DNA of 64,000 nucleotides from Dryococelus australis (lineage: Eukaryota; Arthropoda; Insecta; Phasmatodea; Phasmatidae): positions 63,478,777-63,542,776 of the forward strand of contig CM057002.1 in assembly GCA_029891345.1 (NCBI GenBank), given 5' to 3'. This document shows, piece by piece, positions 4,624 to 53,416 of the stretch (position 1 is the first letter of the stretch; each line of letters starts with the position of its first letter). Both the position numbers and the translations under genes were made by a program. The notes below the pieces were generated by a model that was not told the DNA's origin, ran no database searches, and worked only from the letters and a program-made list of their open reading frames with translations.

Positions 4624-5382
4624 CACTGACAGAAAATCGAACTAAATATTTTTTGTATAGCGCTAAATATACATTTAGTTGCCCTAAAAAAATATTGTTG
4701 GACAAACAAAATTTGAAAAGCAACAAAATTACTTTTCTTCGTCTAACAAAATATGTGTTTGAAGAAACAAAATATCTGTACTGGGCCAAAAAAAAAAAAA
4801 TTAGACCTTCAACTAAATAGTTTGTTGAATCAACTGTATATATTCGTTTGGCTACTCATTTCACTGCCTTAGTTCGAAAATACAGCTTGACAGTTTTTTT
4901 TGTATCTTTTGTTACAGTTAAGAAAGTAATCATGTTTGTTAGTGCATTTATTGATATTTAACAATCCTTTAAACACATTAATAAAACAATGCAACAAGAA
5001 ACTGACAAGTAAAGCTGTAAAACTTGAAATATTTGTTTGCACACGTTGCCCAATATTTGCAGTATATCTATTTAAAAGCTTTCTAATGTCACCAGTTGAC
5101 ACATTAGCTGAACTTACAATTGTGTAGCGCTCGGACGCGGGTGACCTAAGTTCGAAACTCGGTCGAGCCTGTGAGTTTTTTTATATCGGCCCAAACTGTT
5201 TAATGTACGTGTAGCTGAACAAATCTTTAGTCGCACCAACCAAATCTTACAGTTTGGGGAAACCAAATAAGAACGAGAAAATAATTTGTTTCCAGCAACT
5301 AAATATTTCATTACCCCTATAAAAACAAATTATTTAGTTGCACCAAACAAATCTTGTTTGATTCCACAAAACTTTTTTGCGA
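4624..5382 (+). mobile_element. MITE with CACTGAGA-type termini, copy A (~760 bp)
   Basis: The interior closely matches copy B at 8,166-8,883 and, inverted, copy C at 29,453-30,478. The left terminus reads CACTGACAGAAAAT; the right terminus is more worn than in copy B. Near 5,124-5,170 there is a tRNA-like patch (GTAGCGCTCGGACGC followed by AGTTCGAAACTC, resembling RNA polymerase III A and B boxes). All ORFs of 60-137 codons here are spurious. It is non-autonomous: no transposase is present. Confidence 0.8.
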
Positions 5383-8165: not shown

Positions 8166-8883
8166 CACTGAGAGAAAATGGGACAAAACATTTTTTGTAT
8201 AGGGCCAATATATTTCTGAGCAAACAACATTTGAAAAGCAACAAAATTACTTTTGTTCCTCTAACAAAATAAATGTCTGAATAAACTAAACCTCTGTGTT
8301 GGGCGAAAAAAAAACTTAGACTCTCAACTAAAAAGTTTGTTGTATCAACTGTATATATTTGTTTGGCCACTCATTTGAATTCATTCGAAAATACAGCTTG
8401 AGAGTTTGTTTGTATTTTTTGTGACAATTAGGATATTAGCCATGTTTGTTAGTGTATCTATTGATGCTTAACAATCATATAAACACATTAACAAAATAAT
8501 GCAACAAGAAACTTACAATACATCTGTAAAAATTGAAATATTTGTTTGCACACGTTGACCAATATTTGTAGTATATATATTTAAAAGCTTTCCTCGTGGT
8601 CAGTTGTCACATTAGCTGAGATTATTAAGGCTTAGCGCTCGGGCGCAGGTGATCCAGGGTCGAACTTGTAATATTTTTTTGTATTGACCCAAACTGTTTA
8701 ATGTACGTGTAGCCAAACAAATCTTTAGTCGCACCAACCAAATCTTACAGTTTGGGACAACCAAATGAAAACAACAAAATAATTTGCTTTCAGCAACAAA
8801 ATATTTCATTGCCCCTATACAAACAAATCATTTGGTTGTACCAAACAAATCTTGTTTGATTCAACGAAACCTTTTTCTCAGTG
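8166..8883 (+). mobile_element. MITE with CACTGAGA-type termini, copy B (718 bp)
   Basis: Best-preserved copy of the family. The left terminus is CACTGAGAGAAAATGGGA and the right terminus, inverted, is CACTGAGAAAAAGGTTTCG. The interior aligns along its whole length with copies A and C. The tRNA-like patch is present at about 8,630-8,665 (GCTTAGCGCTCGGGCGC). A TA directly follows the right end, compatible with a TA target site, but the left flank is ambiguous. Confidence 0.85.
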
Positions 8884-15214: not shown

Positions 15215-15385
15215 GAACCATAATTAGCACCGCAATCAGCACAACAATCAGCACCACATGCACCACAATGAGCACCGCAATTGGCACCGCAATCAGCACC
15301 GCGGTAATCGGCACCACAAACGGCACTGCAATTAGCACCGCAATCAAAATCAGCACCGCAATCAAAATCAGCACCGCACACACTT
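15165..15385 (+). repeat. Minisatellite of ~9-12 bp units (CAATCAGCACCG)
   Basis: About 18 imperfect copies of CAATCAGCACCG/CAATCAGCACCA. The triplet-like phase leaves several frames open on both strands (109- and 94-codon antisense ORFs), which I treat as artefacts. The array separates the zinc-finger ORF from the ATPase ORF. Confidence 0.9.
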
Positions 15386-15395
15386 CAAGGAAATA

Positions 15396-16150
15396 GTGGT
15401 AACATATGTATTATCATGCAAGATGTTACTTTACCCTGTACACATTCATGCTGAGGATGAAGCTATCTCCCACGAATCGCGACATGGAAGCCTATTTCCG
15501 AATGCAGTGAGGTGCATCATCGCGGGGCCATCGGGTTGCTGCAAGACGTGCGTCCTACGGAGCCTGCTGGAAGAACCGAATGGCCTTCGGTTCGAGAACA
15601 TGTACGTTTATTCGAATTCACTCCAGCAACCGAAATATCAGCGACTGCCACTATTACTGCAGGCCGTGGAAGGCATGGGGTATTTTCCGTGCAGTGATAA
15701 CGAAGCCATCGTACCTCCGAACGAAGCACAGCGAAACTCGATATTTGTCTTCGCCGACATTGCCTGCGAGAAACAAACTTGTATCCCAGAATACTTTAGC
15801 ACGGATCGACACGCGAAAGTGGACTGTGTGTAACTCGGTCAGCCTTAGTCGCGCATACCCAAACAAATGCTTCGCGACAACACAAACAATGTTGGTGCTG
15901 TTTCGCATGGACGATACGAATTGATGCCACGTTGACGATGGTCATGTTAATACGGACATGACTATCAGATTTCAAATATATGTGCGCCTTGAGCTGGAAA
16001 GAGACATATGGGCTTTTGACGATACGTAGATCCCAACAAACTTGTAGACAGACGTAAATATTTGCTTGATAGGCAACAACATGGGGATTACTCTACCATG
16101 AAAGAGGTGGTTTCAATTATAAGAGCACTTAAGGATCGGGGTTATATCAG
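15396..16150 (+). pseudogene. Polinton/adintovirus-type DNA-packaging ATPase (A32/FtsK-HerA-like), decayed
   Basis: In Polintons and related viruses this ATPase drives genome packaging into capsids. The first 145 codons (15,396-15,833) are open. Walker A is IAGPSGCCKT, with Cys where Gly is usual. Walker B is IFVFADIACEKQ, followed by EYFSTDRHAKVDC, typical of this family. A stop ends the frame at 15,833, but LGQ and SRIPKQMLRDNTN continue in the same frame across a second stop. Later pieces (RMDDTN and HVNTDM, to about 15,960) are shifted, and weak similarity fades by about 16,150. It follows the small zinc-finger ORF on the same strand. No capsid or polymerase gene is adjacent, so this is a fragment of a larger element. 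Confidence 0.8.
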
Positions 16151-29333: not shown

Positions 29334-29726
29334 TTTACACATGGGGATACCGGCGTAGTCTGCCCTGCAGTCATATTTCACCGCGATTAATGAGCGGCCG
29401 CTGTGCGCGAGCTGCGGTAAGACAGATCGCCGGACAGATGGCTCTTCTTCATGCGCTGAGAAAAAGGTTTTGTTGAATGAAACAAGATATTTTTGGGGCA
29501 ACCAAATTATTTGTTTGTATAGGGGGCAATGAAATATTTTGTTGCTGAAACCAAATTATTTTGTTGTTCTCATTTGGTTGCCCTAAAACTGTAAGATTAT
29601 GCTTGTGCAAATACAGATTTGTTTGGCTACATGTACATTAAACAGTTTGGACCTATATAAAGAAATTTTTACAAGCTCGGCCGAGTTTCGAACCTAGATA
29701 ACCTGCGTCCGAGCACTACGCCTTAG

Positions 29727-29915
29727 TTTTTTTTTTATTTCTATTTGATGTTGTGACATTTGACATTGACGAAATTCTAGTGAGACCGGCGCGCTGACTA
29801 ATTCCCAGTGCTACAAGGGAACAGCAAATTTGCGGCGTCGGAGGCACCGAGGCGCGAACCCGCGATCCCCCGACTACAGGTCGGCCACTCTACCTCTGAT
29901 CGATGAGGGCGGGGC
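29727..29915 (-). mobile_element. tRNA-derived SINE with poly(A) tail (family 2)
   Basis: Read on the minus strand, it starts with a tRNA-like head: GAGGTAGAGTGGCC (A-box-like) and CGCGGGTTCGCGCC (B-box-like). It ends in an A-rich tail, seen as poly(T) at 29,727-29,736. It is inserted inside MITE copy C, whose sequence continues on both sides. The head does not fold into a full intact tRNA, so I do not call it a tRNA gene. Confidence 0.6.
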
Positions 29916-30304
29916 AATCTCATCTAACGTGACATCTGACGACGCCGTAAAGCTTTTAAGCATATACACTGCAAATATTGGGCAACGTGTGTAAACAAAT
30001 GTTCCATGTTTTACAGCTTTACTTGTCAGTTTCTTGTTGCATTGTTTTATTAATGTGCTTATAAGAGTGTTAAGCATCAATAGATGCACTAACAAACACG
30101 GTTAGTATCCTAATTGTCACAACAAATACAAGCAAACTCTCGACCTGTATTCTCGAACCTGAAGCAGTCAAATAAGTTGACAGTGTAATTATGTTTGCTC
30201 CAACACAGAGATGTTGGTTACTTAAACTCATATTTTCTTAGGTGCACAAAAGTGATTTTGTTGCTTTTCAAATTTGATTTGCTCAACAATATATTTTATT
30301 AGGG

Positions 30305-33190: not shown

Positions 33191-33234
33191 AAGTTTGTAT
33201 GCTGGCAGTAGCTACTGTAACAGTCGACTTTATC

Positions 33235-33740
33235 TACACTAAGCATATTTTGTCCGTCAGTTTGTACAAGTGGTTGGATATACTCTCAAAACTCGTAGGC
33301 GAGTACAATTCTACCGTTCACTCGACCACACGCATGAGGCCCGGAGACGTGAAAGACGATTCCCTGCTTCGGGCATTGTACACTGACGTGAATAGGAGGG
33401 ACGCACGCAAGCCTAAAACCAAGGTGGGAAACCTGGTACACATCTCCAAACAGAAAGGCATCATCGAAAAAGGATTCAGGGCGAATTGGAACACAGAACA
33501 TTTTCGTGTTCGACGTATACGCAACTATGCCCTGAATACCTACTTTCTCGGGGATCTGAATAACGTTCCCATCCATGAATGTGTCTACGCTGAGGAGATC
33601 CTTCCTACGACGTTTCCAGATGTGTATTTGGTCGAGAGGTGTTGAAACGACGTAATGGACAGTCGTATATCAAGTGGTAGCGTCTCCCAGCCCAGTACAA
33701 TTCCTTGGTAGCCGAAGCAGAAATAGAGTACCGATCACCG
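33235..33740 (+). pseudogene. Polinton/Maverick-type retroviral-like integrase, C-terminal fragment
   Basis: Polinton integrases (rve fold with a C-terminal chromodomain-like tail) insert the element into host DNA. The open frame to 33,645 holds the end of the catalytic domain (YKWLDILSKLVGEYNSTVHS, TTRMRPGDV), the SH3-like segment (KTKVGNLVHISKQKG, GFRANWNTEHFRVRRI) and YFLGDLNNVPIHECVYAEEI, ending DVYLVERC. A frameshift at about 33,640 moves the chromodomain-like tail (LKRRNGQSYIKW) to another frame with a stop after KW. The catalytic DDE core is absent upstream, where the tandem array lies, so this is a 5'-truncated fragment. The DNA before 33,235 in the frame probably belongs to the array. 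Confidence 0.8.
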
Positions 33741-38290: not shown

Positions 38291-41000
38291 CTCCACAGGA
38301 GACTGTGATGAACTTTGTCACAAACCATCAATGAAAAAAATTGTAGGGCTGCTTCTTATAAAGTTAAATAGGCAGGCCTACATGCAACCGCGCCAGCTAA
38401 GTCGTGTGCTTAAAAGCGATGGCACACTTTATGTACGTGTCTGTGTAGTCCTTATCGCTTCCCTGTTTCTGAGCCTCAAAGTTAGTGAGGATTTTCATGT
38501 TACGGATGTGAACTGGGAATGTATACATTCACCCATATCGGAGATGGTAATCCAGTTGGGTAAAATTACATCCATTTCTCACCACCTCGCCCTGGATGCA
38601 GGGCAATCATACCCTCGAATAAAGTCTCCTTCCCCAGAGATTAAGTTTTCTCTACTATGCCCATTTGCTTGAAACATGGTTTAAGTAAGGCAATAACCCA
38701 TATATTCTATGAAAATTTGTATACGTCTTTACATACATTTTAGAGACTATAGTTGAACACAGCAAAGGTTTGATAATCAAAGCTGTTGCAACCTAAATGC
38801 GTTGTAATTACTGGAGTAATTGGCCATCGCGCCAAAATTTGACTGTCCATATTTCTTTAATAAAAAAATCAGTAACTCTACAAGCACTTTTTTCGCCCTC
38901 GTTCTTATTAGAAATATATACTGATTATTTAGATACTTTTTAATTAACTTGAAACTATGAAAAGTGCAATATTTTTTAATGGAACGTTTCATTTTGTTTG
39001 AATATTAGTTTTACCAAAGAGGAAGGTTTTTTTTTTTCACTAAGGTGTGCTTGTCATATAGTGTAGCCTCTCCGAAGAAAGGCAGAGTATGAGAACAGAA
39101 AAACCAAGGAGACTTGCATTGAACTTGCTATGAATTGGAAATATAACAAGACGATCTCTTATATCAGTAATAGCATTCTATATTGCGTACTATATAATCT
39201 ATGAAAAATTCTGTCTTATACATGACAAGACAGACGGAAAGTCATAAAATGAGTAGTGTTACGAAAAGAGGCAGACAAACTGTTATATAAAAAGGCTATG
39301 GATTAGTTATTGTTTATTTATCTTATCTTCAGAAAGCTATCATTAATCTTGGTGTGTAATTTAATTAGTTTATGCTCCACCACAATCCGTAAGTCACTAA
39401 AATGAGTTTAAAATTTGTTTTACCTCAGACACTTCGTTCAACGGAAAAAGTATAAGGTGCACATCTTTCTGTAAGGTTAGTTATAAAATTCGTTCGCCAT
39501 AAATTCAAAACATTTTGCGGAAAGTAAATATGTGAAAAGTGTTTAAATTAATATAATTATCATTCAAGCTATGCTCAATTCTCTATATATGTACCGCGAC
39601 GGTGAAACAACATGTATAGAGAATTTCTTGAGGAAGGTTTAGGTAAAGGCGTATAATACATCAATATTTCATGTTAAGAAAGTAGGTAAATGTCGACGTT
39701 TTCTGATCAAGTCGAGATTAGCCGCTTTTCGGGCGCTTAGGTGACTTACGCTGACTAAACCATAAGTGATACACCAAATTAATGTCACACAATTGTAGAT
39801 CTCAAAAAAGTCTACAATAAAAGTCCTCAACATATGTTTGTCTTTTAAGGATGAGCCACAGTACTCATTTTTGTCTTTTAAAGTTCACTTACGAAGACTT
39901 TTTGAACAACACAGTATTAATCCTATGTTAATTACCTTAAGCATTTAGTGTATATAAGTTAACTCTTGTCATTTTCCTATTCCATATTTTTATAGCCTTA
40001 ACTCACCTTTCATTGATTATACAATCCATGTTAACAGTATGCCCCACTCCTTACATCCATTGCAGAATGTATCAATAGGACAAACAAAATCAGAATGTCA
40101 ATTAAACGTTTATTTTAAGTAATAGGAAAAAAAATTCTGATGATTGTCCCTAACAGAATCCCATTTTCTTACTAAAATAAGAACATATTTTTATTAGTTA
40201 TTATTTTGGAATTGATTGTTTAACGACCAGACGGTGTATAGAATATAAATATATTTAATAATTTTTTTTTTAGTTATAAATTTTTTTAATTAAAGATCTA
40301 AATATTTTATTACCTGTATTGTTACTTCAAATTTAAGTGTATTTGTAGGTGAAAGTGTATTTCGTTTCGATTCAGTAAAAAAAAAATGTTCCTCAAAATT
40401 TGTTAATAGAGGGAATATAATATTAAAAGTAATTAATGACTATTTTATAACCTTACACAACAAGGAATTTATTAACGGTGCCTGAAGACTAGATAACGAT
40501 ATAGTGGTGGAGGCACGGATAGTAAGTAATATTACCAGTGATTGAGTAAAAACTTAATTACTTTTTTGCTATTTTGAAAGCAGTACAACTTTACGTAGGC
40601 CTATGCCAGAAAAAAAATACAAATGTCACAAAAGTATTATTGTAATTTTTAAGATAAAATATTATTTATGACACATATGTTACTTAGATGGGTGTTTCAA
40701 CATAACCTCTGCAAAACAAAGAATTCGGTTTATAAAGTGTTACGTTTTTGAATCTTAAACCATAAATATCTAAGCCATTACAATTATTTGATGCAATAAA
40801 AAACCTACTTATGTAACAATTCCTGAGGCGGTTTCCTTTAAAAGTAAACTTAAAGACAGAGTTTCCTTAATCCTTGACACCCTTTCACCCCCAGATGCAC
40901 AATAATTTGCAATCAATTATACCGCAATCATAACAATAAGCAAAAATGGAAATGTTGGTGATAATTTCTTGACAAAAATTATCTAGGAGCTGTATAAATT
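38291..41000. other. AT-rich non-coding stretch upstream of the ITR-bounded element
   Basis: No gene, RNA or known repeat recognised. Composition becomes steadily more AT-rich toward 41 kb. Confidence 0.45.
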
Positions 41001-41272
41001 GGTTCAGCACAATCCATTTTTCCCCATAAAATCCTCGATTTTGTCTCGAATTTCATGCGTTATACCTCCAAAATGCTACAAAATAAAAATTACACATAAA
41101 ATCATGCACGAATACCGATCGTAATATTTATCGCAAAAAAATAAGCAAAATCAACCTATTGCGCATTAAATTAAACAAATTTAGACCAAAAAATGCAACC
41201 TAATTCAAACACCGAAATTAAGTTAATTTAGCCCAAAATTATGCAATTTATGCTACAATGAAGTAAAATATT
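41001..41272 (+). repeat. Left terminal inverted repeat
   Basis: It starts GGTTCAGCACAATCCATTTT and aligns, with scattered differences, to the complement of 46,543-46,818 over its whole length. Shared phrases include CATAAAATCCTCGATTTT, TACAAAATAAAAATTACA and ATAAAATCATGCACGAATAC. Confidence 0.9.
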
Positions 41273-41316
41273 AGGTTATTATTCTTTATTGATTATATTC
41301 GAAGCTCTACTAACCT

Positions 41317-41550
41317 TTAAAAAAAAAAATCTTCTATATGTTCAAACTCGTCACCAATTTCTCGAAGCTCATCTTCGTTGCAAACGCTATCTACAATCAT
41401 TAACTGTAATTTGTGTAGATTTCGATAGAATATGAAAACTATATTTCGGAGTTCGGGAGACTTCATATTTATGGTGTACGCTGAGAAAGTTTATTTAGGA
41501 CCTCCTTTTAAAATGTTAGTCAAACTGGATGGTAAACCGAGCGAAGCCAT
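41317..41550 (-). pseudogene. Small unknown ORF next to left inverted repeat
   Basis: The ATG at 41,550 opens a frame of about 77 codons broken by a single TAA at codon 20, after MASLGLPSSLTNILKGGPK. The rest includes SPELRNIVFIFY and an acidic end (NEDELREIGDEFEHIEDFF). I do not recognise it. Its position downstream of the capsid gene, same strand, and near-intact frame suggest it was a real small gene of the element, perhaps a structural or accessory protein; that is inference only. Confidence 0.4.
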
Positions 41551-41763
41551 TTTTATTTATAAAGAAAACATTTATTTAGATTTAATCAAATGATTTTTTA
41601 CCAGACTAAACAACTTAATAATACATATAAACATTTCAATGAAATTATGGAAACATTTAGTTGTTTCTGTAAAATCGTTTACATCCTCCATTTATTAATT
41701 TAAAAAAATTATATATCTTCAGCAATATTTTCTTTCAAATCATCAGAAGTTAGATTTCTTTGA

Positions 41764-42940
41764 CTAATTAGAACATAAAATAGCATTGCAAGTTATTCCT
41801 GCTTCAACAACTTTGTTCAAATCTAGACAAGTTTTTGTGTTTGTTTTATCATGAACAACAGTTGGTTTTCTATATAAACAATCAGTAACAAATAATGGTC
41901 TTCGCCCCCAAAATGAAAAATTATTGATATCACCTTGAGTGTTTACAGTTGATTTATAATAAAGTTTATTATTTCTACATCGAGTATCTAGTTTTGATTT
42001 AGAATTTCTAATATTATTATTAGAAATAAACATTATTGGGTCACAAAGACCATTTTCAATATCTAGATTCCAATCTTCTTTAGGAAAGATCTCATTTCTT
42101 CCATTCTTAATGTAAATATTCCTTACATTACAGTGATCATACATAGAACCATGTACATACTGTTCAACACGAATTTCTTTATTAGTTTGAAAGCCTACAA
42201 TTACAAAATCAGACATATAAAAATATAAATTATTATATAGATCTGTTATAACAAAATTTAAAACAGTTGTTCCAGCAGGAACTTCTTTTTCTAGAAATTG
42301 CCGTTAATTAAAACTAATAGGTATTTTTGGATGTTTGTATGCTTTTTCTTTAACTGCAATGGCTGTGTTAGATTCGTATTCAACAATAGTCCAGATAATT
42401 TATAATTTTTGAATATCAATATTACCTGGATCAGCATAACTTTTCTGAACTGCTCCATTTGCGTCCATAGTTTCATTAACATATAAACAATTGTTATCAG
42501 ATGAATTTCGAATAAAAGTAATTCTATAACCGCCTTTCCAGTAATTTTCATTGCTATCACGAATGAAGCCAAACAGATATCTTAGTTGCTAAGTTATTTC
42601 ATTTGTTTAATACTGTGAACAGATTTTACATGATATTTATTATCAACACAAGTAAATTCTGAATAATTTTCCTCACGTGGATATCTTAACAATGTATTCA
42701 TCATTGTTGAAGTTAAACCTGGGTTATCAACAGCCTCAATAATATGTCCATGTTTTGATATTTATATTCTAAAAAACTGAAAAGGAAAAAAGTTAGCACA
42801 AACATCAATATTATCTAATTTTGCGTATTTTGCCTCATCTCCAAATTCGTCTCTTTTTAATAAGCGATATTGTTAATAAACATAAGCATCATTTGGAAAA
42901 GATAAACTATCACCTATTTGAATATCAAACTCAATTCTGT
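41764..42940 (-). pseudogene. Polinton/adintovirus-type major capsid protein, decayed
   Basis: In Polinton-like elements this double-jelly-roll protein forms the icosahedral shell. The C-terminal 150 codons (41,764-42,216) are open and contain FVIVGFQTNKE, DHCNVRNIYI, DWNLDIENG and PLFVTDC, the pattern typical of this capsid family. In the same frame upstream, past two TAA codons, come IIWTIVEYES and GGYRITFIRNSSDNNC. Further pieces, LRYLFGF and IIEAVDNPGLTSTMMN (42,570-42,760), are separated by a TAG and a frameshift. The N-terminal part, DIQIGDSLSFPNDAYVY, begins near 42,935 just after the polymerase fragment ends. It spans nearly the usual family length. The minus ORF at 42,291-42,572 is an out-of-frame shadow. 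Confidence 0.75.
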
Positions 42941-42964
42941 TATTGTAAACGATTTAATTCCCCC

Positions 42965-45010
42965 TAGTTTTATCAGTTGGAGGAAAGTGCATGTCGAACA
43001 TTTGGAAATGTATTTAACCACGAAATAGAATTATTGCTAAACATTTCTTTTTTATCATCTTTAACTACTGCAATAGTATTATTCATAAGAAAAATTGTTT
43101 TATAAACAGTCATACAAACACCTGCGATTGTTATGTAGCGGAATGGATATATATTTGCTATTTCTAGAACATATTCTCTTAATTGAAGACAAACATGTCT
43201 TAAAATGTCAACATCAGAATCACAGCATTCAACAAATTCTTTTTGAAATCGAAGATATATATATTTTTTTTTTTCAGCATGCCATTTTAGAAAGTATTTT
43301 CGTTGTTCTTGTTTCATTGTATTGACTTCGTAATATTTTGTAGCAGGTATTTTTCCGTTATAATTTTGATTTCCTGGTTTATTGAAAAAGTGTGGAAAAA
43401 AATCATTTTTTAAGCTATTTTAATCCGAATATTTTCGGAAATATTGCAAGACTTCCTTGAATAAAGTTTATGCGATCAATTATTTTTATATTTAGACTCG
43501 ATATTTTAAGTTACATAATTTTTTATACTTGATATATTGTTTGAGGTTTTATAGTGTTTCTAACGCTATATTTTAAAATAAAATATGAATCGTAGCCTTT
43601 GAAATTGTCTGCAATCCTTTGTGTACATCCTTTATTTTCATGAGAGAGAACCCATTCGAAAACTCATCATTTGTTTTAAAATGTGTTTTGTTACCATAAA
43701 AAATTTTGAACGGATATAAAGTTTGGTGTTTGAGAACCAGTATTCAATAAAGTAGTATTTTTCAGTGTAAGAACAATTCATATTTTTTTCTTGTTTCGCC
43801 CATTACAAGTACAAGCTTTTGTACAAAAAAAAAAGCCTTTTTGAGACTTCTCTTGCATAAAAAATGTATGTCCATCGGTTTTCACAATTTCCTTACACCT
43901 CCAACATTTGGTATAACCACATTCGTGTTTTTTTTTTCTTAGGCATATTTCGTTACAAGTTCTACACTTATAAACCGTTTCACACACATCGTCGTAATTA
44001 GTAAAACATTCCTGTCCAAAACAATATCTATTACATTTTTTACAGTGTATACTAACTAATACGATCTTCACCTTCCTAAACTTTTTCGTGTTGTGGTTTT
44101 TTACACAAATTACATTTCTTTTTATTATTTTTCTCACACTCCTGTTGATCTTTATTATTGTACGGTTTGCAACATGTTTTACAATAATAAACACTACCGA
44201 AAAATGCTTTAATACTATTAACTACATCGTAAAGTTCATCGTGTGGGTACAAATAAATAGCCGTTGGTTTTTTGAACCAGAATGAATAATGGAATTTAAA
44301 TGTGCAGCTGAAACAACTTTAATTTAAATATTCAGAAAATTTTCTGCATCCATAATATCTTCCAAACTGAAACCGATTTCACAACTTTTACCCATTCTTA
44401 CACAAAGTTCACGAGCCTATTCGCCTTGGAATTTTTTTCCTTCTCTAATGTATTTAAGTTCGTTTTTCGTTAATTATACATCCAAAATGATATTATTGTC
44501 GTGTGCTAAAGCTGTAATTATTGCTATAGGCCCACATAAATTATCACCATTATTAATTTTATTAAAACATTGTTTTGCTTTTATATCTTAAGTTAAATTG
44601 ACAATTTTTTTGCCTCTTGCACCGTTACCCCTGGGTATTTTATAAACATCAATATCGAAAGTAGTTTCATTTATATCTACACGTTCATTTGATGTAATTA
44701 TTCTCTCAATTAGAATACGTAAATTTTCGGGGTTTAAATGGTTATTTCTTGCAGCCGAAATTGTATGGCAAAAATTGTGATTATTTGCATATATTCTCAT
44801 TTGACCACCATTTCTATAAACAGTTAATTTTCTTACAGAACTCATTGCTGCGTGAACTGCATTTCGAACAGCATTAATTTTTTCTATCGAATTGTCTTGT
44901 AAATTATTTATGTGAATGCTGTATTTTGTTTGCCAAATGTATCTATCATTAAAATAACATTCACGTTCACGAATTTCAAAGGGTGGTCTCCTTTCCACAT
45001 GTTCATTAAG
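42965..45010 (-). pseudogene. Polinton/adintovirus-type protein-primed DNA polymerase B, N-terminal and exonuclease regions only
   Basis: A protein-primed polymerase would replicate the element. From the N-terminus: an N-terminal domain ending YKIPRGNGARGKK (44,588-44,998); then an OTU-like patch, NNGDNLCGPIAIITALAHD (about 44,500-44,555), across TAA/TAG interruptions; HDELYDVVNSIKAFFGS and a Cys-rich zinc region (CKTCCKPY, CKKCNRYC, CRTCNEIC, CWRCKEIV; 43,850-44,190); an exonuclease part with NFKGYDSYFIL (about 43,600); and CCDSDVDILRHVCLQL...YITIAGVCMTVYK (42,973-43,317), ending NVRHALSSN. The catalytic palm with its polymerase motifs is missing: capsid sequence begins within about 40 bases. 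At least six stops and three frameshifts are visible. Confidence 0.8.
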
Positions 45011-45595
45011 AATTTTTGTTCAACAGGAAATATTTGATCAAAACTTTTATTTTCTTCTTTAATTTAGGGTTTTGAAAAAGTAAAATTTTTTTAATTCCGG
45101 TTAATTTTATTTTTTTGGGGATACAAATATCTGACTAGAGAATGGAAATATTTTTTTTTTCATTCAGTTCTATCATTTGAATAGAGTTCTCTAACACTGA
45201 GATGTGAAAATGGTAAATTTATAAAGTTTGTTTTTTTTTCTTCATTTCTAATAAATGGTATAATAGTTGTGATTAAATCAGCTTTCCTTAAATTATACAA
45301 ATATATAATTTTAAATTATTTAGCGAAGATTTTTAGCTCTCGCACTCTCCTCCCGCTCAACTAAACTACTAGATTGTTCGTTGCCATTATTATTGTTTCA
45401 TTTATATAGAAAAATTTTATTAAAGGTTAAAAAATATATAAAGATGATGTAGAACTATAAAATTAATATAAATAAATAAATTAAATTGTAATAATGTTTA
45501 AATCATTGATAGTAATATTTAAATATTGAAATTATCATATGATAATATTTCTCGTTATTTTTTATTTTATTTATTTTTTTATTTTATTTTTTCAT
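45011..45595. other. AT-rich spacer inside the ITR-bounded element
   Basis: No conserved ORF. Composition is nearly all A and T with T-runs. It lies between the polymerase N-terminus and the zinc-module gene, both on the minus strand, and may hold the polymerase promoter. Confidence 0.4.
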
Positions 45596-46118
45596 ATTTT
45601 TGTATGTTTATTCTTAGTAGTTGTATGATGAGGAAATAATTCTAAAGTCTCACTACATGCTGTACATGTCTTTGTTGTACAATTAACATGTTGAATTTAA
45701 TTTAGAATATCTACTAATGCATTGTGAGGTGTAGCATTTTATGGTCTTATTTTCTCATTAAAACATTTTTTTACATTTTGTCTATAGTCGCTTTATGAGG
45801 ATAAAATGAATCGATGGGTTTATTCTCGTTACATAATATACACGTCTTAGTTGAATAATCACTATGACGAGTTTCATTTGCAATGTGTAATTTAGCATTT
45901 TTGTTCCTTTTGAGATATAGTTTAGGTACATATTTTCCACGTTCGCATAATACTATCTCTTTATTTAAATCATAATGATTTCTGGCATATTCGGCGGAAC
46001 ATTTTTTACAGTTATTGTGTGATTATGTAATGGAAAAAATTCAATGTTTAGTACTTCACCACACTCGTTGCATTGCTTACAGATGGTATTATTTTCCATT
46101 TCGAGAATTGAATCCATT
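45596..46118 (-). pseudogene. Protein with three tandem CxxC...CKKC zinc modules, decayed
   Basis: Starting at the ATG near 46,118 the frame encodes a repeat of a treble-clef-like module: C-x2-C, then an aromatic pair with a His (FFPLHNHT, FYPHKATI, LFPHHTTT), then C-K-x-C. Module 1 has CNECGEVLNIEFFPLHNHT, module 2 TKTCILCNENKPIDSFYPH, module 3 TKTCTACSETLELFPHH. The modules sit in different frames because of at least two frameshifts, and TAA/TAG stops lie between modules 2 and 3. The pattern resembles zinc-binding modules of endonuclease VII/HNH-type and other viral nucleic-acid-binding proteins, but no HNH active site is visible. I do not know this protein in described Polintons. Function unknown, probably nucleic-acid binding. 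Confidence 0.55.
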
Positions 46119-46201
46119 TCATTTATAAAGATAAAAATTTATTAAAATAAATAAACAAAATTTCTTTATTTTAATAATTTTTTCTTTATAAATAAAACAA
46201 A

Positions 46202-46544
46202 ATGGAATCACTTATAAAAAAAGTTGAACAATTCATATAAATTGACTAAACTACAAGTTCTCGAAATTAATAAATGGTATGCTGCTACAGAATTTAGAAT
46301 GTATGTATCTAAGATTGGTAAAAAAATTAATTGTGTTCTAGAATGTAAGTATAAAATTACATTACCAGATCGTAATGTAAATATGTTTGATAAAAATAGT
46401 TTAAAATGAATAAATGATAAAAAAGTTTTTATAGCATCTAAAGGCTTAAAAGAAATGGAAAATTGCGCTCCTATATTCATGATAGAGAATTTTCTTAAAA
46501 TATATATAAATTCTATTAATTTGAATCTATCAATTATCTTTTAA
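46202..46544 (+). pseudogene. Small divergent ORF (possible OB-fold/ssDNA-binding-like protein)
   Basis: The only plus-strand gene of the element. An ATG at 46,202 (MESLIKKVEQFI) runs into a frameshifted open stretch (46,224-46,409) with LQVLEINKWYAATEFRMYV, KIGKKINCVLECKYKITLP and DRNVNMF, and continues in frame past a TGA to 46,544 (KVFIASKGLKEMENCAP). The pattern of a tKyG-like turn followed by LxxxYKITLPxR resembles small conserved proteins of unknown or suspected ssDNA-binding function seen in insect Polinton-like elements. This similarity is from memory and weak. Its end coincides with the inner edge of the right inverted repeat. Confidence 0.4.
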
Positions 46545-46818
46545 ATATTTTCATTTGATTTTAGCTTAATTTGCATAATTTTGAACTAAATTATTTAATC
46601 TCTTTTTTTACTTGAATTAGCTTTCATTTTTGGTTTAAATTTGCTAAATTTGATGCATAATCGGTTGATTTTGCTTATGTTTGCGAGAAATATTACGTTC
46701 AGTATTCGTGCATGATTTTATCTGTAATTTTTATTTTGTAACATTTCGGAGGTATAAAGCATGACATTTGTGGAAAAATCGAGGATTTTATGACAAAAAA
46801 AATGGATAGTGCTGGACC
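46543..46818 (-). repeat. Right terminal inverted repeat
   Basis: The complement starts GGTCCAGCACTATCCATTTT and aligns with 41,001-41,272. The outermost ten bases differ from the left end at one position (GGTTCAGCAC versus GGTCCAGCAC). The immediate flanks (TATAAATT on the left, TACCCATATA on the right) show no obvious duplication. Confidence 0.9.
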
Positions 46819-49800
46819 TACCCATATACTACTATAAATACTATACTGTATTATGATATATGAAATATACTCAAATGCAATTACAAAGAAATCCTTATAC
46901 ATCGCACGTGTGAAATGTACGGTTTTAATAGTAGTTTTCTCCAGCAACAATAACAACTACTGAAAGTATATTTGGTTTTTAGGCGTGTTGCCTATCATAG
47001 CAATTTTCAGAAGTGACGTCTTATAAACTTCTTTCAGATTAAAACTGAGTTTATACTGTGCCAAATATGAAAATCGCTATCAGAAAATACTCCTTTAACG
47101 ATCATTTACATAAGCTAACTGAATGTCAGAAGGCAAGGGGCAGTCATTTCCTCTGGAATATAGAGTAAAACGACATATAATAAGTCACGTTCACAGCTAC
47201 CAAATTGTGGAACTACACAAAAGAGTTTACCAAACCCTTAGGAGACAGGAGAAAGTGCGAACAATTTAAATATGAGAATTGTTTTGGACTCACCCAGTGA
47301 TTCCGATATAAAATCGGACGGTTTATCTGATTTCACCAAATGTCTGGCATTAAGATGAATTTGAGCAGATGTTTCTCCATTCTTTAAGGTTCATTCCTGT
47401 CAGTAATATTCCAAGCCAGTTCCGACGCCATCTACTTTCTCGAATAGTACGTACCTGCAACAGTAACACGTATAGCTACAAAAAAAAACCAAGAAACTCT
47501 ATGTTTCTTAACTATAAAATATTACATTTGGGATCTACATCGAGATGCCATACATACATCCATGCCAAAGTTTACAGTTGCAGCAGAGTACATGAAATTG
47601 TTGTACTGTACCATCTACTATAAAATTGTGAGACATCTATTATAATTAGAACATAGGTCACCTTTGTCATGTACTTATAAAGCTACGATCTGCATTCTGT
47701 TGATCTATATTAATAACTGGCACCACAATATATCCGAGAATTCCAAAATCTGTACTGGGGTTTTTTTAACAGTATATTTGCACCGCGTGCGTTAAACATT
47801 GTACCAGGCGAATTATTTACTGACGATAATAGATGTTTTACACCACGACTGCAAACGCTAATAATACTGTGGCAGACAACTAACACGAAGGCGTATATTG
47901 CAAAGATACTCAACTCCAAAGGAACAAATAGGTAACTCACTCGAAATCTGACGAAAATATCATACCACATATTGGATTGAGATAATAGCGCTGTGGTGAC
48001 TTCACAACATCTACCGAATACTAAAATTCTGACTAATCATTGAAACACACGACGATTTTCAAACCAAGATTTAATAATATGAAATTGAGGTTAGGTAGTA
48101 AAGTAATTTGTTTAATTTATATGTAAATTTATAAATAAATATAATCTGTGCTACCCTTAAAATATTTGCTTAGTTCTAGGGGAAAATAAAATTAAGAGAA
48201 CCTGAAATAAATTTTAAAAATGAAAACTGTACCGTGTGATGTTAGTTCAATCTCGTTGGCGCGCGAAAATGCAACACACATTTTAAAATTAAAAATTACT
48301 TTAAAAAAAGTAATATTTATTTAAGATTTTAAAGTAATTTTCTTAGTTCGCCTGTATCTTTCCAAATAATTTGTCTTTTGCTATTGTAAAAGTTCCAAAA
48401 CTTGACAATTTACTTAGCCCGGGAAAGCTAGTATTAACATTCTACACGCGGCCTCTTGGTCGGAGTACATTATGCAATGAAAATAACCGAGTGTGAAAAA
48501 AAAAGCTTAATAAAAAAAATCGCATTTTAGAAAGTAAATGAGGCGAGGACATATCAGGTATGAGTGCGAAATTAATTTATCCGTACGGCGTTATTAATGG
48601 AGTCATACGGCATCGAAATTGTATTCAATCGCATTTTTTTAAATAATTTCAAAACTAATTAAAGTGCACCGATGCCTCTTCTTAGGCATGCCTGGTCACT
48701 TTCCTATCCTGGGCGCATAGACACTACCCTAACCATTAGTATGGTTTTGCTATTTTGCAAGATTAATCGCTGTAAAAATTTTGGCAATTCAAAACCTTTT
48801 GAATGAGCGATAAAGGATCAATCTTTACCAACCACCTCGGAAACAGGAAGAAAATTGAATCAAAAGACGTCACGAACAAAAAGGGAAAAACTGTCGCGAA
48901 TCTGGATGTAAACGCAACCAAATATTTACAGCAAAATTGAAAAGAAAACAACTGACATAAAAGAAATGGATAAATTATTTGATAATGCAAAGAAAAATGT
49001 TTAGAATGTATAATAAATAATTTTAAATTCTGATAACTTAAATAATTTTACACTACTAGTAGTGTAATTAAATTTTCACATTCATGCTCAGATCATTAAA
49101 CTACGAAGAAGCAATTTACAGTTATATAAAATAAAAATTAATAAATAAACAAAGTAATTGACGTCACCCAAAAGAAGATAAAAAAAATAAATAAGCTTAT
49201 GTAGTACTCTAGCCGGTACGGTACACATCAAATGTTCGCCAAATCGTTTATAAAATATAGTGAAAAAACGGACAAAAGCACGCATGCACACATAGATGCA
49301 CAAAATAACGCGAAAATTCATAACTCACAGACACAGAGGCAGGAATATGATCTCGTGTGCCATCTTCCCCTCTGAAAAAGTGGGCGAACAAAGCCCATTC
49401 ACAGTGTCACAAAGCGGATCAGAGCCCCGAGTGCTATCGCATAAAGGAACTTCCACGTCATCTCGTTGCTGTGTACGTATACTTAATCCGAGGCGGGACT
49501 AACCGAGCCAGGAAGTCTTTCAAAGCTCCTTTTCAAGCGCCGAACAGCCCGGTAATCCTCGCTCTATCCACCTCTAAAGGTCGAGCCATCTTTCAGCCGG
49601 CGCTTTTGTGAACTGGAGAACGTGGCGTCTCTTGCAGGTGTGAGCGAGCAGCTGTGGTCACTCGCCGTCACTCAAAGCAACCAGAATGAAAACGAAAGGA
49701 TTTACAAAATACTTAACATGGCGTTCGCTTTACGATTACGGTTATGTCGTGATTTTATTGCGCAATTTTTTGGGCAAAACTCGGACGATATCAGTAGAGA

Positions 49801-50894: not shown

Positions 50895-53416
50895 CCTCAA
50901 ATATTCAGCCTGTACCTCCTCCTGAAACTACCCATGACAAGATTAAAGCAGTCTGAGAAGTCCAGTCTGTACTTTCTGAAACTAGCCATGGTGATGGTTG
51001 TGCTGTCACATGCGCTCAGTACATAATTACTGAAACAACACATGATGATGCAGTCTCAGATGTTCTTCAGCCTCAATACACACATAATCATGCAGTTTCA
51101 GATGTCCTCCAGCCTCAAATTACACATGATGCTGCCTCGTCTGTCCTCCAACTTCAAACTACATTATGATGCAGACTCTGATGTCCTCCAGCCCATACCT
51201 TCTCAAACTACACATTGTGATGGCGGTACAGTCTCAGGTATCCTGCCACACTGCCCAAATTTGATCATACTGAGTATGTCGATAAGCCACATCAGCCATC
51301 CAATATTCAACCATGGTATCAAGGCGGAAGGAAGTACAATTTCCAACATCATTGGTATGCATATTACCCTTGGCTCCATTTTGAAGTGCAGGGTGAGAAA
51401 CTATTTTGGTTTTTCTGTACAAAAGCTCAAAACATGACTCTAGTTGCCCATGAATCAAATCACGACATTTCACTAACTTCCGAGGGATATATGAATTGGA
51501 AAAAAGCAGTTAACAAGTTTAAAAAACACGATGCTTCCTCTCGTCACAAAGAATAAGTTGTGAAGTTGACTGCTCTGAAAAAAGGTGCACCAATAATCTC
51601 GCTTATTTCACAAGTCAGGTATGATCAGGTCAACAACTGCAATGTTTTGAAAGCAATAATCACTTCGGCTTTGTTTTTAGCACGTCAGGGACTAGCCTTT
51701 CGGGCTAACATAAGGGATGAAGGTAATTTCTGTAAACTTATTTTGTTGACTGAAAATGACATTCCAGAACTTGAAAATTTCACACAGAATAAAAAATCGT
51801 TCACTTCAAGTGATATACAAAATGAAATCCTAAAAATTGCTTCTCATGAAATATTACGCAACATTGTTGACACAATTGAAACGAGAGGAGAGTTTTCCTT
51901 AATAATTGACGAATCAAGTGGCAAAGAACAAGTGTCAATACATATTAGAAGTGTGGATCATGAAACATTCAATATAGATGAGTTTGTCATTGGGTTATAT
52001 GAAACAGCATCAATGACTGGAGAATCCTTGTTGAATGTGATAAAAGATGCATTGCTTCGTCTGGACGTGAACTTAGATAAATAACGTGGGCAATGTTACG
52101 ATGGAAGCTCCAACATGGCTGTTGCAAAAATGGGAGTTAAATCTAGAATGTTAGCTGCGCAACCTCTAGCATTATATATTCATTGCGCTGCACATGCTCT
52201 CAATGTAGCATTACAAGGTTCGTTCAAATCATTCCCCTTGATTCGGAACTGTTTGCAGTGGGTGAATGACATTGGGGTGATTGTAAGAGACTCTCCCAAG
52301 CGACGCGCAGTGTTTTTTTAAATCGCAACAGGTCCCAATTTGACTAGTTCTGGCCCACGACCACTCTGCCCAACTCGTTGGACTGTGCGAGAAGCACCCT
52401 TGTCAGGTGTTTTTAAATTGTATCCAGCTGTGCTGGATTTTCTAGACACCTTAGCTTATGATCGTAGTTATAATGGCCCTAAAGCAAGGGGTTTTCTAAA
52501 TCGAATTTCGCAAGGAAATGTCTTTTTTTGACATTAAGATAATCCAAGTGGTGTTTTCATCGACTCAGAACCTTAGTAACACTTTGCAAAGTAAAACCCA
52601 GATAGTTGCTGGTGCTAAGGAAGCTTACAATGTAGCAATACAGTGTCTAGAAAGTAAGAGATTGGATATTGCATTTGATGGTGTTTGGGATGAGGATGAA
52701 CAAAAGATTAAAGAAATGGATCTTTCAAAACCCACACTGTCAAGAACGAGAACACTTCCAAAGAGGTCAGAGCACGCCCAAAATCTGGCTGCTGATCACA
52801 AGTTTGAGTCAGTCAAACAATACTACAGAAAAATGTACTATGGGTTTCTAGATAATATTATTAATGAGATAGAAGATAGGTGTGAGCAGCCTGGATTTGA
52901 GAAATACCTCCACTTGGCTCCTGGATCATTGGATGAGCCAATCTTGACAAACAATATCTGAATGTGGAATTGATGTGGCTAAGCTTAAACAAGAAAAGGA
53001 ATTTATCCCACAGTTGATTCAAACTCCAAAAAAGTGTACAAGACTATGTTAATGGTTTCAAACAAATGCATCCAGAAACAATGAACCTATTTCCCCAATT
53101 ACATGTTCTCCTAAGATTGCTACTGGTGGTTCCAGCTACATATTCTACAGCTGAACGGTCGTTTTCAATACTACGCAGAATAAAAATGTACCTTCGGTCA
53201 ACCATGACACAAAAACGCTTGAATCATATGTGTGTTATCACCAGTTACCGAGAATTACTTGAAGCTACGAACATAAACAAAATTATGAGTGGATTTATTA
53301 ATGCTAATTCGCACAGGTGCCAAGTGTTTGGAAAAGTAGAGGCGCGACAGTGGTTCTCATATTGTACGTACAGAAACAAAACAAAAAATACTGTCTATGT
53401 GTTATCTACCAAGTAA
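50895..53416 (+). pseudogene. DUF4371/ZMYM1-like hAT transposase, decayed
   Basis: hAT-superfamily transposase of the type annotated as zinc finger MYM-type 1-like. Order: an N-terminal region with 42-48-bp tandem repeats encoding THDDAVSDVLQPQ variants (50,900-51,240); a TTF-like zinc finger region (QPWYQGGRKYNFQHHWY, FWFFCTKAQ; 51,308-51,480); the DUF4371 region (ARQGLAFRANIRDEGNF, FSLIIDESSGKEQVSIHIR; 51,560-52,084); the RNase H-like part (RGQCYDGSSNM, HCAAHALNVALQ, RPLCPTRWTVRE; to 52,531); and the hAT dimerisation tail (ATYSTAERSFSILRRIK; 53,066-53,416). One frame is kept from 50,900 to 52,531 with stops near 50,955, 51,165, 51,553, 52,082 and 52,319. Residues 52,518-52,961 are in another frame. 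Confidence 0.85.
50990..51240 (+). repeat. Tandem repeats within the hAT gene
   Basis: Four to five imperfect units containing GATGTCCTCCAGCCTCAAAC and ACACATGATGATGCAGTCTC. They are in frame where they encode a THDDAVSDVLQPQ-like repeat in the N-terminal region of the hAT protein. Confidence 0.8.

Follow-up and report, generated by a model that had tools for sequence, protein, structure and literature searches.

The gene set of Polintons and their length of 15-20 kb have been described (PMC4028283), and Mavericks are reported to possess inverted terminal repeats (ITRs) with AGTAGT...ACTACT-type ends and 6-bp target duplications (PMC8097293). In the Hessian fly and other insects, Mavericks are fragmented and have accumulated deletions, keeping polymerase or integrase only, with consensus sequences of 600-4500 bp (PMC8504770). 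The polymerase of bidnaviruses is of Polinton origin (PMC11071308). Here we analyse a window of 64,000 nucleotides of Dryococelus australis DNA (assembly GCA_029891345.1, contig CM057002.1, positions 63,478,777 to 63,542,776 of the forward strand) and a compact, ITR-bounded element of 5.8 kb that occupies its positions 41001-46833. We are confident that this element is an internally deleted copy belonging to a Polinton/Maverick family of the host genome whose long members measure 15-16 kb; it is classed as such, and not as a complete element, because it measures 5.8 kb against 15-20 kb. An ordinary, dead derivative is the likely interpretation, rather than a new kind of element. Unlike the fragmented insect Mavericks, it retains both ITRs and parts of two genes. 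A literature search turned up no study of this family, by which we do not claim that none exists. Adintoviruses, which have a similar gene set and a linear genome with ITRs, are an alternative that the present comparison does not separate from Polintons.

The deleted-copy reading is directly supported by long relatives that share the ITRs and both arms of the element (capsid arm and polymerase arm, meeting at the join), by the other, native sequence that relatives have on each side of the join, by occurrence of the join here only among 40 scored places, and by the breakage of both genes. All recognisable genes lie on the minus strand. Counted from the right end, their order is a pair of Cys-rich open reading frames (ORFs; 45771-46138), the N-terminal part of the polymerase with a Cys-rich module (45019-43778), its exonuclease-side part (43419-42973) and the capsid pieces (42986-41764). 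According to the ORF list, both polymerase and capsid genes are split by stops and frameshifts. The features of the element are as follows.

40994-40999, no strand: ATAAAT, counterpart of 46834-46839 and possibly the left target duplication, on the assumption that the ITR has lost 14 terminal bases
41001-41272, plus strand: left ITR, capsid side; in inverted orientation 82.1% identical to the right arm, and matched at 79-85% by 38 further places scored in the genome
41764-42986, minus strand: remnant of a major capsid protein, double jelly-roll by sequence, about 13 first codons missing, with stops and frameshifts; 44-49% identity to public protein P0006
42986-42988, no strand: deletion junction of capsid arm and polymerase arm; family arms end or begin here, and the sole spanning match among 40 scored is the window's own
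42988-45019, minus strand: type B DNA polymerase, N-terminal part with Cys-rich module (43778-44318) and exonuclease-side part (42973-43419); PF03175 at 8.4e-7, alignment A1
45771-46138, minus strand: two Cys-rich ORF pieces, separate from the polymerase module, from the ORF list; matches weak, below Pfam cut-offs
46218-46409, plus strand: small ORF close to the right ITR, from the ORF list
46544-46833, minus strand: right ITR, polymerase side, ending ...ACTACT; from the match to the left arm and comparison with relatives
46834-46839, no strand: ATAAAT, right-flank 6-mer adjoining the ITR end; exact match to the left flank

A preliminary description, made from the sequence of the window alone, had noted inverted repeats about 5.8 kb apart. 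These are borne out by comparison within the window, where 41001-41272 and 46818-46544 are 82.1% identical over 279 aligned columns (E 1e-70), with the right end now moved. The true end of the right ITR lies 15 bp farther out, at 46833, because the terminal AGTAGTATATGGGTA is common to relatives. The family motif is AGTAGT...ACTACT; AGTAGTATATG is read at the right terminus of the window copy as well as at both ends of the relatives L016 and L044. Eroded ends occur at the left of the window copy and in the copies C15 and L029. In the left ITR of the window copy, the terminal 13-15 bp are decayed or lost and the start could be 40988 or 41000. Two readings of this end, neither preferred, are an eroded terminus at 40988 without duplication, and ATAAAT at 40994-40999 together with 14 lost bases. 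As evidence of a target duplication ATAAAT is weak, because this 6-mer is present 4 times in 2 kb of flank.

The host genome (3.415 Gb) was searched with the left ITR as a query. Here and below, each host-genome search scored 40 candidates and skipped very common words, and its counts are lower bounds. The ITR yielded 508 candidates, and all 40 scored ones match, namely the window's two arms and 38 other places at 79-85%. These matches bear on the idea that two unrelated insertions became flanked by inverted repeats by chance. Nothing was found in its favour; it is contradicted by the E value of the ITR match, by recurrence of the ITR at 38 other scored places and by relatives in which both arms adjoin that ITR, and we regard it as extremely improbable.

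From the 38 other ends, which represent 37 elements (two ends belong to one element on C15), the inner 6 kb were read. Twenty-four of these stretches track the capsid arm to window positions 42985-42989 and then diverge. The arm was printed at the join for 23 of them (all but L014), and most have one common native continuation that is missing from the window. Two of the 24 rejoin window sequence: L015 does so at 42988, following 1.8 kb of unlike sequence, and L016 does so at 45661. Coming from the polymerase end, L033 and L035 track that arm to 42988 before they diverge, and partial tracking of it is seen in L038, L043 and L045. The remaining nine (L009, L010, L017, L018, L020, L024, L027, L032 and L041) show shorter matches, other structures or none. 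L042 has an additional match to the capsid side, separate from its first. In relatives, the capsid arm extends beyond 42986 and the polymerase arm beyond 42988 into sequence missing from the window copy.

When window positions 42790-43200 were used as a query for the join, 40 of 3817 candidates were scored, and only the window's own place spans query positions 1-411. Among the other 39, 38 end at or before query position 213 and one begins at 215, the position of the join. It is unlikely that a second copy with the same join was missed, because the half matches are 85-89% identical and such a copy, if equally similar, should score far above the best of them (281 bits); the limit of 40 candidates and the skipped common words qualify this. 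At the join, 1-2 bases at most are shared with both sources. The three long copies exceed the window copy in length by 9.3 to 10.6 kb, so that about 9-11 kb are missing. An internal deletion of this size, likely a single event, has fused the polymerase gene, at its middle, with the capsid gene at approximately codon 14, probably through end joining. As a side observation, the junction query gave 3817 first-look candidates versus 508 for the ITR query, and polymerase-side sequence may for this reason far outnumber intact ends.

The uniqueness of the join also speaks to two proposals of the preliminary description. It had considered an undescribed reduced lineage, which is not supported since the join cuts both genes and, among the 40 scored places, is found only here. 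It had further considered mobilisation in trans in the manner of a miniature inverted-repeat transposable element (MITE); amplification of that kind is not supported for this copy, as no second copy with the join was seen among the 40 places scored out of 3817 candidates. Like nonautonomous DNA transposons and MITEs, the window copy has kept its ends and lost its interior; unlike for MITEs, no amplification of its deletion was found, the window's own place being the single one of the 40 scored to span the join. A self-standing reduced lineage or MITE-like family with the gene set of the window copy might be suggested by a compact, ITR-bounded element with two recognisable genes. It is nevertheless very unlikely in view of a join unique among 40 scored places, of a polymerase without its catalytic part and a capsid without its start, and of same-ITR relatives that carry usual Polinton genes. 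The result is compatible with a one-off insertion in trans of a molecule that had been shortened beforehand.

A longer relative with the same ITRs, which the preliminary description proposed to look for, was found in three copies with both ends located: L044 (15,103 bp), C15 (15,682 bp) and L029 (16,451 bp), or 15.1, 15.7 and 16.5 kb. They support its view of a Polinton-type element and an internal-deletion derivative. The ITRs of L044 are 90.0% alike and flanked by a perfect 6-bp target duplication, CATCTT (6/6). Partner ITRs of L029 and L044, sought at one predicted place each, were found in both cases; those of L014 and L015, sought in the same way, were found in neither. The interior of L044 contains the capsid arm, a match to the polymerase arm and an integrase-like ORF, and that of L029 contains a polymerase-arm match as well. 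The integrase-like ORF of L044 has no rve match of its own and is assigned by chain only, through an ORF of L028 (61% over 61 amino acids; likewise without rve match) to the rve-bearing ORF of L034 (72% over 71 amino acids).

Pieces of other relatives add to the gene content of the family. The rve integrase domain is matched in L034 at 5.6e-13 and in L021 at 3.1e-6, the latter below cut-off. A T5orf172 gene is present in L019 (1.8e-10) and a DUF3627 gene in L029 (1.2e-11). In one Pfam scan of 10 ORFs of relatives, 5 (those of L034, L038, L019 and L029, and that of L012 below cut-off) gave such matches and 5 nothing meaningful. Pieces of L035, L039 and L038 match a P-loop ORF located elsewhere in the window, at 15336-15833 (2e-10, 4e-11 and 7e-6). 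By their motifs they may be packaging ATPases; the L035 piece has no Pfam or PHROG match. An ORF of L019 resembles an adenovirus-type cysteine protease in its motif and may encode one; it has no meaningful Pfam or PHROG match. In 10 pieces of the window copy, the Pfam scan recognised no integrase (rve).

The comparison with Polintons and Mavericks can be put as follows. Alike are the ITR ends of the family, the 6-bp duplication of L044, polymerase B, the rve integrase (in relatives only), the double-jelly-roll capsid and the long relatives of 15-16 kb. In contrast, the window copy is 5.8 kb long, has neither an integrase nor the catalytic part of the polymerase nor the remaining interior, and both its recognisable genes are broken.

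The polymerase remnant predicted by the preliminary description was confirmed. Its piece 42973-43419 on the minus strand matches Pfam DNA_pol_B_2 (PF03175) at 8.4e-7, above cut-off, and shares 57-65% identity with five public proteins from the same family. Judged by its sequence, this polymerase is of family B. In an alignment with the five public proteins, the window piece stops after residues NVRHAL, where P0001, P0002, P0004 and P0005 continue and P0003 has ended earlier. The catalytic part absent from the window copy is present in relatives L038 (PF03175 at 2.3e-17) and L035 (3.3e-13). The Cys-rich module at 43778-44318, originally considered a separate zinc-module gene, belongs to the polymerase, because one uninterrupted ORF of L015 spans the N-terminal stretch of the polymerase and the start of the module. 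Scans of IMG/VR with three polymerase queries and a polymerase profile, and of a phage collection with one polymerase piece, found no relatives.

The major capsid remnant was likewise correctly recognised, as shown by way of P0006. The best pieces, 41764-42303, 42400-42588 and 42594-42761, are 49, 44 and 49% identical to parts of this protein, which itself matches the double-jelly-roll family PF21738 at 8.1e-26. Taken alone, the window pieces gave no Pfam match and no match in a protein database search; P0006 was retrieved with the capsid ORF of L012 (269 amino acids), at 50% identity over 84% of the query. L012 itself reaches PF21738 at 4.9e-5 and 23.1 bits, below the curated cut-off of 27. 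In relatives, the capsid starts about 13 codons ahead of the first recognisable capsid in the window. An IMG/VR scan with one capsid query found no relatives, and searches of solved structures with the window capsid piece and with P0006 returned only weak, unrelated matches, 1 and 3 respectively (E 0.02-0.74). An AlphaFold2 model of P0006 (alignment A2) had a mean predicted local distance difference test score of 36.6, which is too poor to judge the fold, and was left unused.

These genes bear on the possibility of an endogenous bidnavirus-like genome. Bidnaviruses have a genome of about 6 kb and a parvovirus-type capsid. Size, ITRs and polymerase type B would fit. The capsid is double-jelly-roll by sequence and not parvovirus-type, however, and long same-ITR relatives with integrase and other Polinton genes contradict such an origin, to which we assign hardly any probability.

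Given that the window element is a deleted copy, the deletion may have taken place before or after insertion. We lean moderately towards deletion after the copy had been inserted. A less probable course is that replication gave rise to the deletion, in the way that defective interfering genomes of viruses are formed, and that the integrase of a full-length relative afterwards inserted the 5.8-kb molecule in trans. Retention of both ITRs in the window copy agrees with this course, but it is partly a matter of ascertainment, because copies were sampled through their ITRs. The join at one place only among 40 scored, which is also what deletion after insertion gives, speaks against it. The lack of an unambiguous target duplication of the window copy argues against it too.

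Further evidence comes from other short copies with both ITRs, namely L032 (3.2 kb), L017 (3.9 kb) and L016 (5.0 kb). Their target duplications are 6/6 (ACCCTT), 5/6 and 5/6, respectively, and their structures differ, which favours shortening during replication. L017 joins approximately 41474 to approximately 43745 in window coordinates (the second figure read through L015), and L014, L015 and the C15 copy have internal deletions of other kinds. Because the other short copies have other structures, shortening has recurred and taken different forms. As a separate observation, the interior of L032 (paired with L049, on C3) matches no other stretch read; L032 might be a miniaturised derivative that has been filled with foreign sequence. 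Over the 7 copies with both ends seen, the target duplication is 6/6 in L044 and L032, 5/6 in L016 and L017, not clean in L029 and C15, and ambiguous in the window copy.

Divergence within ITR pairs, expressed as Kimura two-parameter distance, is 0.162 for the window copy, 0.131, 0.107 and 0.104 for the three long copies, and 0.080, 0.213 and 0.253 for the three short ones. Between copies, its mean is 0.159 (standard deviation 0.032, range 0.094-0.255; 98 comparisons, which are not independent). The ITR pair of L014 was excluded from these comparisons, its right ITR not having been found and 4 sites only being aligned. The value for the window copy falls inside the between-copy range, which is compatible with shortening prior to insertion. 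The age of the window copy is about equal to that of the rest of the family, and there is no sign of late mobilisation. We infer that the family formerly replicated by a protein-primed polymerase and was inserted by its integrase, that the window copy is dead, and, likewise, when its deletion took place.

Several points weigh against the deleted-copy reading. The long copies were read piecewise, none of them end to end, and L029 and C15 are without a clean target duplication. In the window copy, the left terminus is eroded and the target duplication ambiguous. The genome-wide counts are lower bounds, as stated. L015 holds both arms with 1.8 kb between them, and joins near 42986/42988 can for that reason arise stepwise. 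Finally, the short copies with ITRs and duplications of 5/6, 5/6 and 6/6 would also fit shortening before insertion.

The rest of the window contains traces of other elements. The ORF at 33193-33645 (plus strand) resembles integrase-cluster ORFs of L025 (44% over 77 amino acids, 5e-16) and L028 (40% over 82 amino acids, 3e-14), has no Pfam match and is likely a remnant of another, distant Polinton-type integrase. The P-loop ORF at 15336-15833 (plus strand; GPSGCCKT), which matches the ATPase-like pieces of L035, L039 and L038 and in Pfam only a weak Rad17 P-loop, is likely what is left of another Polinton's ATPase. Pieces of a hAT-type transposase lie at 51557-53416 (plus strand; DUF4371 at 5e-8, Dimer_Tnp_hAT at 1e-7). 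Inverted-repeat pairs of at least 60 bases in window positions 1-40900 number 10, all among the same three places; these are dispersed related repeats at 4687-5350, 8207-8881 and 29456-30297, the third inverted relative to the other two, and 74-94% alike per matched arm. Neither a tRNA nor an Rfam family reaching the gathering threshold was found in the window.

Taken together, a compact and striking element is resolved: it is a deleted member of a Polinton family that is abundant in this large genome. Uniqueness of the join, along with native sequence of relatives on either side of it, offers a simple way to tell derivatives from new lineages. We also entertain, as a speculative idea which we hold to be rather unlikely, that the family acts in a virus-like manner: ITR-to-ITR deletion molecules would arise repeatedly in protein-primed replication and insert in trans, and the copies of 3.2, 3.9, 5.0 and 5.8 kb, which differ in structure and one of which (L032) combines an interior unlike that of any other copy read with a perfect target duplication, would be fossil defective Polinton genomes. 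If the short ITR-to-ITR copies had indeed been shortened before they were inserted, they would preserve defective Polinton genomes as fossils and indirectly point to an extrachromosomal form that replicates and integrates.

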